DNA from: Acidobacteriota bacterium
Lineage (GTDB): Bacteria; Acidobacteriota; Blastocatellia; UBA7656
Length of the DNA stretch: 62,630 bases
Assembly (NCBI GenBank): GCA_038040445.1
Contig: JBBPIG010000033.1
Location: 1 to 62,630 of the forward strand
Direction: 5' to 3'
A program made the translations under genes and the position numbers. Every line of letters starts with the position of its first letter. Position 1 is the stretch's first letter. Under the pieces are notes generated by a model that made no database searches, had not been told where the DNA came from, and saw only the letters and a program-made list of their open reading frames with translations. This document shows positions 29,442-36,150 of the stretch, in pieces.

Positions 29442-31073
29442 CTACAAGTAGCCGAGACCGCGCAGCTTGTCCTCGACCATCCGCTCTTCTTCCGCGGTCA
29501 GCCGAGTCTGATCGGAGCCGGTCTGCAAACCGGCGGAGTCGGCCTGCAATGGGTGCGCTGCCAGGAAGGCTTCTGTGAAGGCTGCTTGAATCACGTGGCC
29601 GTCCAGCTTATCAGGTACCGGCATGCCCGCTGCGTAGGTCATCGTCGGAACCAGGTCATAGACCGATGGCGAAGCCGTCAGCCTGGTCGAGCGCAGGCCC
29701 GGTCCTTTGCAGATCAAGATGCCCTCAGGCCGGTGATCGCCGCTCCACCAGAATCCGCGCGCGCGAACTTCTTCTGGCGGCCCACCAAGCCGGGCCGCCG
29801 AGTTCCAGTAGACATAAAGATCGCTCGCACGCTCGGTGAACGGGCCCGAATAAACCTCGTCGCGCCGAACTATCCGGTCGACTACCTTGTTTCCCCCGTC
29901 GTCGGTCCACTCGCTTAGATCTTCGATAATTCGGGAGCAGACTTCCTCGTAGGCGCTGCGCTTGACGATGCCGCCAGCGTTACGTCCTTCAAGGTTGATA
30001 TTGATGACGTGGCGGCCGGGCTCGGTGTAGGCGATCGTCCGCTCCCAATCGATCGAAGAATAAAACGAATCCTTCTCCGCAGTCTGTAATCGCGCGATGC
30101 GATCTTCACCCACTCCGGCCTTGACGCGTTCCCTGACGGACACGGGCAGGAGACTGCGAGCAGCGCGGCGGCCGGCGCTGATAAACGACAGCCGGCCCGA
30201 CGAGCGTCCGCTTCGAACCATGTAGCCTTTTCCTTCGAGCCACGCCGCCAGATGATAGGACGCGCCGGTGTGTGGTCCCATCCCGTGGTCCGAGATCACA
30301 AAGACTTGAGTCTCATCGTTCGCGCGGTTCAGCAGCCGCGCAATTGCTCGATCAAGCGCTCGATAGATTTCAAGAAGCGGATTGCTCGCCGCCGTCTCGG
30401 AAGGTTGATCGCCATGCAAGCCTTCATGGTATTTCCACAGATTGTGCCCCGCCCAATCGCTTGCCGTGTAGACCGTCATGAAAAAATCAACCGGCCTGTT
30501 TGCGATCAGATACTCCGCGGCGTCCGTCTGAGTCTCGATCAACTTCATCCAGGCGGTTGTCGCATCGTCGAGCCGGCCGGCTCTCATCAAATCACCCAGA
30601 CCCTGCGGGGCGAAATCATAATTTGAGAATCGGCTGAAGAATTCGCCGCGGAGCTTTTCTGGACAGAACGCGCGCTCGTTCAAAGACGGGGCGTCGAGCC
30701 CGCTAACCATGAAGCCGCCAGCCTCGCACTGAGCCGGATAGGTCATCGGCACGTTTAGAAATCCGCAAGTGAGCCCATGCCTCGATAGATGTGAGCTGAG
30801 CAACTCGCCCGTTCGGTCCCCGCCTTTGAAGAAGACTTGCTTGCCGGTTGCGAAGTCGCGATCGGAAAAAACAAACAACCCGTGACGGCCTGGAATCAGT
30901 CCCGTCAGTATCGAAGTCCATGCGGACGCGCTGTGCATATTCGGAGTTGACATCAAACGCGATGACGCTCCTTCGTTCATTAGCCGCGCCAGTGCGGGAA
31001 GATGGCCGGCCGCGGTCCACGGTTCGATGAGATCCATCGTGGCCGCGTCAAGACCGATGACTAGAATCTTCAT
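29442..31073 (-). CDS. Alkaline phosphatase family protein, second paralogue
   Basis: A 543-residue protein with ILVIGLDAATMDLIEPW at the N-terminus, the nucleophile region STPNMHSASAWTSILTG and the metal motif VISDHGMGPHTG. It shows the same fold and order as the paralogues ending at 21742 and 31241, with clear divergence. The C-terminus is EEERMVEDKLRGLGYL. Phosphodiesterase or headgroup-transfer activity is likely; the substrate is unknown. It is separated from the next paralogue by an AT-rich repeat gap. Confidence 0.85.
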   Translation of the reverse strand: MKILVIGLDAATMDLIEPWTAAGHLPALARLMNEGASSRLMSTPNMHSASAWTSILTGLIPGRHGLFVFSDRDFATGKQVFFKGGDRTGELLSSHLSRHGLTCGFLNVPMTYPAQCEAGGFMVSGLDAPSLNERAFCPEKLRGEFFSRFSNYDFAPQGLGDLMRAGRLDDATTAWMKLIETQTDAAEYLIANRPVDFFMTVYTASDWAGHNLWKYHEGLHGDQPSETAASNPLLEIYRALDRAIARLLNRANDETQVFVISDHGMGPHTGASYHLAAWLEGKGYMVRSGRSSGRLSFISAGRRAARSLLPVSVRERVKAGVGEDRIARLQTAEKDSFYSSIDWERTIAYTEPGRHVININLEGRNAGGIVKRSAYEEVCSRIIEDLSEWTDDGGNKVVDRIVRRDEVYSGPFTERASDLYVYWNSAARLGGPPEEVRARGFWWSGDHRPEGILICKGPGLRSTRLTASPSVYDLVPTMTYAAGMPVPDKLDGHVIQAAFTEAFLAAHPLQADSAGLQTGSDQTRLTAEEERMVEDKLRGLGYL

Positions 31074-31107
31074 AAACAGCTCAATGACATCGGAAACGGA
31101 GAAAGCG

Positions 31108-31189
31108 TTGAAAAATGAAAATTTCCACTTTCAGCGGTTTCGCTCGCAGCAATCTTCAATTTGCAATTTTCATTTTCATTGTTCAATTC
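31108..31189. repeat. AT-rich imperfect inverted repeat between paralogous phosphodiesterase genes
   Basis: A left arm with TTGAAAAATGAAAATT and a right arm with CAATTTTCATTTTCATTG flank a ~35-base GC-richer loop. It is similar in composition to the heptamer hairpin at 21645 but less regular. Confidence 0.55.
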
Positions 31190-31240
31190 ACTCCGGCTTG
31201 CGCGGATGAAACTTGTACCGTCTTAGATAACGCGCCCCGC

Positions 31241-32857
31241 CTACTCGATATAGCCCAGCGCTTTCAGGCGCTCACGCAGTTCTGCCTCTTCGCGCGCGTT
31301 GTAGACTGACTGAACCGACGCTTCGCTTGTAGTTGCCGCCGGTTGCTTGTATGAGGTGCCCCGTCGCGGAGATTCCATCGTCTCATCAAACACTTCTGTC
31401 AGCACGCGGCCATCCATATCCGTCGTCAGCGAACAACCTAGTGACGCCAGCGCGGTGGGACCGACATCGCGCAAGTTTGGCTGATTGAAAAGACTGGCCT
31501 CGCGTCCGATGCGGCGACCCCATGCGATGAATATCCCATCGCGTGAGTGAGTGCCCGTCGTCGAATCCGCCGGCACGACTACCTCGCCGTAGCTTGGACG
31601 CTCATTGTAAACATACTCATCGCGACGCGGGACCATCACCAGATCCGGCAGCCTGCTTGACCACGCGCCGTTGAATGCCTCCTCGCGGCGCATTGCCCGT
31701 TCAAACACCGGCTCTCCATCGTCAGGCGCGATCAGTTGCAGCAGCGCGCTCCGGGCTTCTTCGACAACGCTATCGAATGCGTCTTCGCTCACGATGCCTT
31801 CGCTTTCGCGGCCCGCCAAGTTCACCCAGACTCCTTTGTCTTGAGAGAAGAACGCGCGCGTCCGCGACCAGTCGATCTCTTCAAGAAAGCCGCCGCCGTA
31901 TTCCACTTTTCTATCAAGAACGCTTCCATTCGGAACTGCCGCCGAAATTCTCCGCGCGATCTTTCCCTTAAGCGCTCTGACTCGAGCAATGCTCTTGCGC
32001 GAAGCGGGTGACTTGAATGTCAGCAGCCCGGCGGAAGCCAGCAGCTCATTGACTCGGACTTCAAACAGCTCCGAACAGAAGCCGTGGTCCGAGACCACCA
32101 GCACTCTGGTCTCGGCGGGAAGCTGCTCGATCAATCTCCCAACTGCAAGGTCGAGCCGTTGATATGTCTCGTGAATGAACTCTCGAAACTCGGGCGGTGT
32201 TTTTGGGTCGTGGCGTGGATGCGCCGGGTCCATATCGGCCCAGTAGTCGTGCTGCGCTCGATCGAGCACCGAGAAGACCACCATCAGAAAATCCCACTCG
32301 CCTCGCTGCATCAAAAATCTGAGAGCGCGTTCGCGGACTTCGGTCGCTCGCCGAAACTCATTCGCGCGTGCATGCTTGTCGGGGATTCTCTCAGGCTCGA
32401 TAACGTAATTTGGAAACTCCGCGAGCAATTCGCTCTTGAGCGAAGCCGGATGCGTAAACTCTGACCCGCGGCCCGGCGTTAGCATTCCGGTCACCATCAA
32501 GCCGTTGATCGGCTCGGGCGGATAGGTCGTCGGGACATTGAGCACAATCGAGCGTCCGCCGTGTTCAGTCAAGATATCCCACACCGGTCTCGTCATTATG
32601 TCGCGCCCGCTCATAGCGCGTACCGTGTACTTCGAAGGGTTCTTGATGAACGGCGAGAAGACTCCGTGCATGCCTTCGCTGGTGCCGGTTGTGCAGCTAG
32701 CCCAGCCGGGAAAACTATTTGGCAGGATGGTGGAGCGAAGCGGCGCACTCACGCCCTCGCGCATCAGCCGCGCAAGAACCGGCAAACGGCCCGCGCTCGC
32801 AAGCGGATTGATTATGTCGAACGTCGCGCCGTCCAGTCCTATGATTACCGTCTTCAT
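31241..32857 (-). CDS. Alkaline phosphatase family protein, third paralogue
   Basis: A 538-residue protein with VIIGLDGATFDIINPL, the nucleophile region ILPNSFPGWASCTTG (Ser at the usual Thr/Ser position) and VVSDHGFCSELFEV. A late STTGTHSRDGIF segment contributes another metal ligand His. It ends EEAELRERLKALGYIE. Together with the APS kinase upstream this could point to modification of glycans with phosphate or sulfate, which is inference. Confidence 0.85.
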   Translation of the reverse strand: MKTVIIGLDGATFDIINPLASAGRLPVLARLMREGVSAPLRSTILPNSFPGWASCTTGTSEGMHGVFSPFIKNPSKYTVRAMSGRDIMTRPVWDILTEHGGRSIVLNVPTTYPPEPINGLMVTGMLTPGRGSEFTHPASLKSELLAEFPNYVIEPERIPDKHARANEFRRATEVRERALRFLMQRGEWDFLMVVFSVLDRAQHDYWADMDPAHPRHDPKTPPEFREFIHETYQRLDLAVGRLIEQLPAETRVLVVSDHGFCSELFEVRVNELLASAGLLTFKSPASRKSIARVRALKGKIARRISAAVPNGSVLDRKVEYGGGFLEEIDWSRTRAFFSQDKGVWVNLAGRESEGIVSEDAFDSVVEEARSALLQLIAPDDGEPVFERAMRREEAFNGAWSSRLPDLVMVPRRDEYVYNERPSYGEVVVPADSTTGTHSRDGIFIAWGRRIGREASLFNQPNLRDVGPTALASLGCSLTTDMDGRVLTEVFDETMESPRRGTSYKQPAATTSEASVQSVYNAREEAELRERLKALGYIE

Positions 32858-32894: not shown

Positions 32895-32955
32895 AACCAC
32901 AAAGGCACAAAGACACTAAGACAGGATTTCTTTGTGGCTTTGTGCCTTTGTGTTT
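32895..32955. repeat. Heptamer hairpin of the CACAAAG type
   Basis: The left arm ACCACAAAGGCACAAAGACA and the right arm CTTTGTGCCTTTGTGTTT pair around a short spacer. The arms show about 7-base periodic CACAAAG/CTTTGTG units. It lies between two minus-strand genes just after the APS kinase stop, and could end its transcript. Confidence 0.75.
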
Positions 32956-32967
32956 AGGTTCCGTCGT

Positions 32968-33570
32968 CTACGCATAGCCAGGCGCTTCAAGTCGGCGGCG
33001 AACTTCTTCCTCATCCTCTTCGGTGTAGCTGCTCGGCGCGGACGCCACCAGGGACATGTTTTCAAGCTTCGCGATTATTCGAGCCGCGCTTTCCTCGGGC
33101 AATTCTCGATCCGTTTCAACGATTACTTCCGAAGCAAGCGGCGCTTCATAAGGATCGTCGACGCCGGTGAAATTCTTGATCTCACCGGCGAGCGCCTTCT
33201 TGTACAGGCCCTTCACGTCGCGCTTGGCCAACACGTCGATCGGACACTTCACGTACACTTCGACAAAGGCGCCGATATCGCGCCGCAGTTCGTCGCGCAC
33301 TTCGCGATAAGGCGAGATCGCCGCCGCGATCGCGACGACGCCGTTGCGAGTCAGGAGATTGCACACAAAACCAATTCGTCGAATGTTTGTGTCGCGGTCT
33401 TCTTTAGAAAAGCCAAGCCCCTTTGAAAGATTAGTCCGGATGACATCGCCGTCGAGCACTTCTACCCTGTGGCCTCGAGCGTCCAATTCGCTTTCGACAA
33501 GCCGAGCAAGCGTGGTCTTACCCGCGCCCGAAAGCCCCGTAAACCATAATGTAAACCCCTTTTGTTCCAT
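32968..33570 (-). CDS. cysC: Adenylyl-sulfate (APS) kinase
   Basis: Makes PAPS from APS and ATP, giving the sulfate donor for sulfation or reduction. A 200-residue protein with the Walker A motif [31 protein letters not shown] and the lid motif [18 protein letters not shown], then [21 protein letters not shown]. The C-terminus has about 25 extra residues ending [18 protein letters not shown], unlike typical CysC but like the tails of the three phosphodiesterase neighbours. No ATP sulfurylase or sulfotransferase lies nearby. Confidence 0.92.
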
Positions 33571-33681
33571 CTGCTCTCCCGTTTGATAGATAGTCCGTTC
33601 ATTCTATTGCGAAAGGCGCTGATCGTGCAAAGGAGCGAATATACACGACCACTTCGACTTGCGAAAGAACGCGGCCGATTC

Positions 33682-33907
33682 GGTAGTGTCCTAATCTTGT
33701 GTTGATATTTGCAGGCGCCCTGGAGCACGACACCGATGACGGGCGACGGAATATTTGGACTGCGGCGGCCTTTGTGCGTTGCCGCCGCTTTTGGTTATCG
33801 CCCACGAAACGACACAAAGCGGTGGCAACGCAAAGACGCCACCGCAGTCCAAATACGCGGTCGCCCGATAGTGTCCTAGTCGACCAACACAAGATTAGGA
33901 CACTACC
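33682..33907. mobile_element. MITE-like element with 23-bp terminal inverted repeats and 8-bp target duplication
   Basis: Ends 33682-33704 and 33885-33907 are perfect 23-bp inverted repeats (outer sequence GGTAGTGTCCTAATC). They are flanked by an exact 8-bp direct repeat, GCCGATTC, at 33674-33681 and 33908-33915. The 226-bp interior is itself a long imperfect inverted repeat and has no convincing gene. This is the structure of a non-autonomous transposable element moved in trans by a transposase not present here. It sits in the 600-base gap between the divergent cysC and permease genes. Confidence 0.85.
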
Positions 33908-34042
33908 GCCGATTCGAAGCGAGCAGACTGAAGTCCGCAACAGCAGGCCGAAGATCATCGACTAGCCAAGGCGCCGCCGGGCAGGGTCTGAGAAGGTACC
34001 TGCCTGAGAGCGGCGCAGTCCAAAGCGGTATGAATGTTCGCC

Positions 34043-34072
34043 TTGACATGACTCCGCCTTAAAGTTAATAAT
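34043..34072 (+). promoter_or_regulatory. Predicted sigma70-type promoter for the first APC permease
   Basis: TTGACA (34043-34048, perfect -35) and AATAAT (34067-34072, 5 of 6) are separated by 18 bases, about 117 bases ahead of the ATG at 34189. The region between the MITE and this promoter (33916-34042) shows GC-rich stems but no gene. Confidence 0.5.
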
Positions 34073-34188
34073 CGCGGCGCTTCAACGACCTATTTCCGGT
34101 CTGCCAGCGTTTTCATTTGAGCTGCCTACTGGTCCAGAGCCCGCCTCTGCGGAGCTCTCATCCAACATCGAGAGGGGAACGCAATCGG

Positions 34189-36150
<1,962 letters not shown>

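Follow-up and report, generated by a model that had tools for sequence, protein, structure and literature searches.

MITEs are short, non-coding elements that carry terminal inverted repeats (TIRs), are flanked by target-site duplications (TSDs) and occur in many copies. Among the systems to which such an element can be compared, the IS1 family makes TSDs of 8–9 bp, with an E. coli IS1 end that starts GGTGATG, and mobile insertion cassettes (MICs) contain passengers but no transposase. Transporter ISs and MICs are both named in the available part of PMC3129680, which draws on the IS1595 article for the transporter ISs. TSDs of 8 bp are given as usual for IS1595 in the available text of PMC8101967, and the accessible sections of PMC3733652 report tyrosine transposases associated with GTAG-type repeats in Acidobacteria. 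In PMC8841776, MITEs appear only in the reference list. In the open-licence literature no mention of the MITE described below or of its ends was found, although a search of this scope can indicate absence only weakly. Querying the same literature with 11 bases of the end returned only unrelated titles.

Here we analyse an element of this kind that lies in a stretch of 62,630 nucleotides from an Acidobacteriota bacterium, referred to as the window. The MITE served as an entry point: following its ends uncovered IS1-like elements with restriction-modification and toxin-antitoxin genes, bounded by clean 8-bp TSDs. The genomes compared are drafts, and gene calls are mechanical open reading frames (ORFs).

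The element and its insertion site

The MITE occupies positions 33682–33907, as established by direct reading, repeat search, copy search and comparison with a family consensus. With a length of 226 bp and no transposase gene it is a non-autonomous miniature transposon and, as such, ordinary. Direct reading places the TSD GCCGATTC on both sides, at 33674–33681 and 33908–33915. The repeat search identified the left TIR, GGTAGTGTCCTAATCTTGTGTTG, at 33682–33704 on the plus strand, which could also be matched to the ends of elements in the related genomes G005 and G032, and the right TIR, its perfect complement, at 33885–33907 on the minus strand. Pairing is perfect over 23 bp within the element; the 24 bp given by the repeat search include one further pair, between the flanking C and G. 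An earlier sequence-only reading had proposed precisely this architecture of an 8-bp TSD, 226 bp and perfect 23-bp ends, and its further claims hold as well, namely that the interior is a long, imperfect palindrome and that another TIR-like segment is present there. The palindrome is formed by two 52-nt arms on the plus strand, 33740–33791 (repeat search and folding) and 33816–33867 (repeat search), that are 85% complementary and separated by a 24-nt spacer. The third, internal segment was located by repeat and end-core searches at 33866–33881 on the plus strand; over 16 nt it shares 88% identity with the left end, and it forms a 42-bp TIR–TIR hairpin together with the right end. At up to two mismatches the 13-bp core of the ends occurs three times in the window, always within the MITE, whereas 100 shuffles contained 0.51 on average and at most 2. 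Three mechanical ORFs (88, 119 and 88 aa) overlap the MITE, each extending into the flanks.

The location between cysC and a permease gene, likewise taken from the letters alone, is borne out by profile matches. In the cysC gene for adenylylsulphate (APS) kinase (32968–33570, minus strand; PF01583, 5.1e-62), the start codon lies 112 bp away from the MITE; the relatives of CysC found by a search belong to mixed phyla. The amino-acid permease gene (34189–36150, plus strand; PF13520, 8.5e-61) has its ATG 282 bp from the MITE, and its mechanical ORF begins upstream of that codon, at a TTG at 34117. On the permease side, matching to the consensus revealed a putative sigma-70-like promoter site (TTGACA-18-AATAAT, 11/12) at 34043–34072 on the plus strand, which is conserved in the related genome G003. 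A weaker promoter-like site on the cysC side (TTCGCA-16-TATATT, 9/12; 33638–33665, minus strand) lies 16 bp from the insertion. Both putative sites are uncut by the insertion, for which the sequence-only reading had suggested a possible influence on the expression of cysC and the permease gene. Elsewhere in the window, the minus strand carries neighbouring ORFs of 543 and 538 aa (29442–32857) whose similar starts (IGLDAATMDLI and IGLDGATFDII) suggest that they are paralogues.

The cysC–permease region of G003, which belongs to another species of the same genus and is ~80% identical here, provides an empty site with a single TCCGATTC, corresponding to 7 of the 8 TSD letters. Compared with the joined flanks, the G003 match continues for 11 bases beyond the junction, after which the sequences diverge; compared with the filled site, it ends 2 bases inside the element. 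The sequence-only reading had named in advance two findings that would speak against a MITE, namely the absence of any other copy and related strains without an empty site, and what was found is 22 loci in the host genome and the empty site in G003. Farther along this intergenic region G003 has other inverted repeats; a pair different from that of the MITE, CACCCACGGCAGTGGGTGGATCGTTCAGG, lies within the region (L303:1155-1410, G003:C330).

A repeat family in the host genome

The copy count that had been suggested was carried out with the 226-bp MITE on the host genome, an assembly of 6.75 Mb in 72 contigs. Some of the 86 alignment rows obtained are self-matches of the palindrome on the opposite strand, and the rows were reduced to 22 separate near-complete loci; L018–L020 are counted among these although the alignment misses parts of one or both of their ends. 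TSDs of 8 bp are exact and private at 12 of the 22 loci, have one mismatch at 3 and are absent by our criterion at 7. Partial copies lie at the extreme ends of six contigs (C10, C15, C46, C58, C65 and C69), and the family has therefore probably also broken the assembly.

Relative to a consensus built from 21 of the 22 loci (without L020), the window copy has 3 substitutions in 224 positions, and divergence over the 21 copies ranges from 0.9 to 13.8%. With so few differences it is, by this measure, among the youngest of the family, which supports the recent transposition that had been proposed for it. No full 226-bp copy was found in six other genomes of the taxonomic family, in two of which not every candidate was scored, and four of the six contain short matches, mostly to the MITE ends. 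Since these six lack a full copy, the 226-bp family seems to have expanded within the host lineage. A blastn search of a plasmid collection, which may omit records close to the window's genome, gave no match. As a control for the end pattern, the reversed pattern gave 20 matches compared with 58 for the real one, a control that is not independent because the end, read by eye, is nearly mirror-symmetric.

Insertions of the MITE prefer intergenic DNA. When the sites were joined, an ORF of at least 150 aa spanned 9 of 22 insertion sites, with L020 placed only approximately; among control positions taken from these flanks it was 394 of 440 (p = 1.4e-7). For ORFs of at least 100 aa the counts were 13 of 22 and 412 of 440.

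Transposons with related ends

The parent transposase was expected outside the window, and this proved correct: the likely parent family, judged from the ends, is that of IS1-like transposons of related genomes. The MITE end, with at most two mismatches, is present in 6 of 8 genomes of the order; in a draw of 396 genomes from the phylum that did not include G003–G006, it was found in 7. Elements with exact 8-bp TSDs found via these ends measure 3,544 bp in G032, 2,698 bp in G005, 1,366 bp in G213 and 663 bp in G402, and two in G019 are 160 and 161 bp long. The G032 element (L273:2581-6124, G032:C16) has GTCTGAGA on both sides and ends that match the MITE at 20/23 and 20/23 positions. Its transposase of 326 aa lies above the cut-off of PF03400 (DDE_Tnp_IS1) and reaches 97 bits with the NCBIfam model transpos_IS1, whose cut-off is 100. 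Similarly, an element of 4,001 bp in G004 (G004:C64) has CGGTAAAG on both sides, ends that match at 19/23 and 19/23, and an IS1-like transposase. In the G032 and the G004 locus alike, the two element ends match best out of 17,956 positions each. The MITE TIR agrees with one end of the G005 element at 22/23 positions and with the other at 19/23. Markov shuffles of five loci yielded 0–0.01 exact-TSD end pairs around the transposase per shuffle, and the real pair is present in four of the five.

When the 326-aa transposase of G032 was used as a query, 5 of 8 genomes of the order proved to contain IS1-like loci. Among four transposases tested, three exceed the PF03400 cut-off (30.6, 30.2 and 29.0 bits vs 24.1) and that of the C14 element in the host falls below it (21.0 vs 24.1). 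The NCBIfam IS1 model NF033558 is the best match for all four, in each case under its cut-off (97, 82, 55 and 41 vs 100 bits). As all four remain under the NCBIfam cut-off and one under that of PF03400, 'IS1 family' is to be understood as a distant assignment for these proteins. A sequence-profile search of the PDB with the transposases gave nothing at an E-value of 0.01.

Within the 72-contig host assembly, no transposon was found whose ends are identical to those of the MITE, the best agreement being ~17/23. The C14 element (L299:751-4209) spans 3,459 bp between copies of GAGCCGCG and its ends match at 12/23 and 12/23; its IS1-like transposase frame comprises 280 aa, with a TAG within the match in one search row. 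C5b (L298:903-3006), of 2,104 bp and with the TSD ACAATTGG, has ends at 17/23 and 12/23 and retains only a fragment of an IS1-like transposase. A third locus, C5a, combines a 240-aa frame with one end at ~17/23 by hand count, for which no partner end was found. The suggested search for a transposase flanked by the 23-bp TIR was thus rewarded in related genomes, where near-identical ends surround IS1-like transposases, and failed in the host, where none has equal ends. Two candidates were not counted: L059 (628 bp), which has an exact TSD but a partner end with 6 of 13 mismatches, and the lipase element L285, whose TSD is not clean (2 mismatches). Of 36 single TIR-like ends from several genomes, 35 had no partner beside a TSD, the one exception being L059. 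Outside the ends, no noteworthy similarity was seen between the MITE and the elements compared, and because the likeness is confined to the ends, a simple origin of the MITE by internal deletion lacks support.

Very probably, then, the MITE is a non-autonomous element mobilised in trans by a single-ORF DDE transposase of the IS1-like kind that recognises its ends. Such an enzyme would bind the 23-bp ends, GGTAGTGTCCTAATC..., in trans and cut the target with an 8-bp stagger, so that the MITE would be inserted between cysC and the permease gene with duplication of GCCGATTC. The non-coding palindromic interior would be carried along. We infer that this type of transposase moved the MITE and that its direct partner was either lost or is not included in the host assembly.

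Alternative explanations

Two other transposase families deserve consideration. A MITE of the IS1595 family would likewise produce 8-bp TSDs, the length described as usual in the available text of PMC8101967, and the host genome does contain an IS1595 transposase at C1:446185. Inspection by eye also places 10 bases of the end core, GTGTCCTAAT, on the reverse strand at ~L082:681-690, ~700 bases from the gene, with no partner seen. Against this parentage, the 15-bp end has no match with up to three mismatches in the 7 kb around the C1:446185 gene, where the repeat comparison rests on 25 of 47 pairs. Nor did any of 22 further loci from the class with an IS1595 match, several of them short or cut by contig ends, show a convincing flanking pair at up to 4/14 mismatches. 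As no DDE_Tnp_IS1595 gene was found between these ends at the loci searched, IS1595 is not supported as the parent, and we consider it very unlikely. A REP/BIME-type repeat moved by a RAYT (Y1 tyrosine) transposase is suggested by the ends, which read GGTAG and so contain GTAG as in GTAG-tagged REPs, by the linkage of tyrosine transposases to such repeats in Acidobacteria reported in the accessible sections of PMC3733652, and by the 29–33-bp palindromes of the host genome. Against it stand the exact 8-bp TSDs, present at 12 of 22 copies and even at a 29-bp palindrome, and the staggered-cut TSD seen on most young copies; this explanation appears extremely improbable. Y1 elements are not known to make a TSD.

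Alternatively, the element could be a regulatory or structural RNA hairpin that is under selection and mobile only secondarily. Its fold is indeed very stable on both strands, with z-scores of -14.3 (plus) and -12.6 (minus) and 0 of 200 shuffles as stable on either, and one terminator-like match lies inside the MITE (33762–33785). A count of one is not above the shuffle mean of 0.7, however, and no Rfam match at the gathering threshold was found in 32900–34700. Pairing was evaluated on an alignment (A3) of 20 of the 22 near-complete loci, leaving out L020, which lacks one end, and L021, in which both ends are of the right-end type, against 500 column shuffles, which related copies can exceed without any structure. 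Two of five measures lean above the shuffles: 93.8% of the palindrome cells are paired compared with 93.5% (reached by 21/500), and 6 cells show two-sided change compared with 3.1 (reached by 32/500). The remaining three are unremarkable, namely the covariation score (144/500), pairs with two-sided change (161/500) and further pair types (492/500). When partners are slid out of register only 35–47% are paired, and therefore the palindrome is real. The copies nevertheless give little sign of selection on an RNA fold of the interior, and we regard this explanation as very unlikely. Mobilisation by an IS1-like transposase remains the reading that we prefer.

Passenger genes and small forms

Several elements with related ends carry passengers. 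In G005 the 2,698-bp element (L194:3279-5976, G005:C481; exact TSD GAATTTCT) lacks a transposase and contains a single protein of 814 aa in which an Mrr-like nuclease is fused to a DNA methylase (PF04471, PF01555). C5b carries a DNA methylase (PF01555) and an SfiI-like restriction enzyme (PF11487, 4.9e-53), and C14 a HigB-like protein (PF05015) with a HigA-like protein (TIGR02607, 48.2 bits vs a cut-off of 47.7) that also matches the PADLOC model PD-Lambda-2_B (7.5e-41). The passenger of the G032 element is an AAA ATPase and that of the 663-bp G402 element a DUF6438 protein. Nothing recognisable was found with Pfam in the other two frames of the G004 element, or in the ORF listing of the G213 element.

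At the other extreme, the host genome contains very small forms. A perfect palindrome of 29 bp at C18:71319-71347 (L004:2987-3015) consists of two 14-bp ends flanking one base and has the exact 8-bp TSD GAGCCGTG. A 92-bp form without the central palindrome is flanked by CAAGTTCA, and forms of 62, 32 and 31 bp have TSDs matching at 7/8. For forms of 33 bp (C15), 38 bp (C20), 41 bp (C11) and 42 bp (C6) there was no TSD within the limits used; the 41-bp sequence, at C11:20817-20857, is a separate one that resembles the 42-bp TIR–TIR hairpin of the MITE. We read the short forms as products of internal deletion in inserted elements, with direct movement as the alternative, and the series of sizes with TSDs (226, 199, 92, 62 and 29 bp) makes decay or a minimal element size testable. 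The host also has a second repeat type of ~140 bp (L083, L084, L086, L087, L090 and L091), which starts with the GGTAGTGTCC core shared with the MITE and whose interior is palindromic and rich in CTCTGCG; only L083 shows a second matching end.

The extended family spans 29-bp TIR-only palindromes to restriction and toxin-antitoxin cassettes. As a tentative idea, plausible if somewhat short of probable, one IS1-like transposase system in this bacterial family might mobilise whatever lies between ends of the GGTAGTGTCCTAA type, namely TIR-only palindromes (29–32 bp), hairpin MITEs and whole defence cassettes with a restriction-methylase fusion, an SfiI-like restriction system or HigBA. If so, MITEs and mobile defence islands would be two outputs of a single machinery. 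Such elements would give small defence cassettes a simple route within and between the genomes of one lineage.

Comparison with known systems

As a short, non-coding, multicopy element with TIRs and TSDs, the MITE resembles bacterial IS-derived MITEs, of which MITEAba12 (PMC6382973) is an example. Its own ends match IS1-like transposons of related genomes, and its interior consists of a single long palindrome together with an additional copy of the TIR. The single-ORF kind of the IS1 family is suggested by transposases that match PF03400 and, below its cut-off, NCBIfam transpos_IS1, and by the ends of the MITE-related elements, which start GGT. Unlike that family, the TSD-bounded examples here measure 2.1–4.0 kb and at least three have recognisable passenger genes; one transposase lies just below the NCBIfam cut-off (97/100 bits) and the others well below. 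The terms transporter IS and mobile insertion cassette suit the cargo-bearing elements. In the G032, G005, C5b and C14 elements, IS-like ends surround passengers with or without a transposase, as in the transporter ISs and MICs named in PMC3129680; what distinguishes the present elements from these is that the ends are IS1-like and the cargo is mostly of the defence type.
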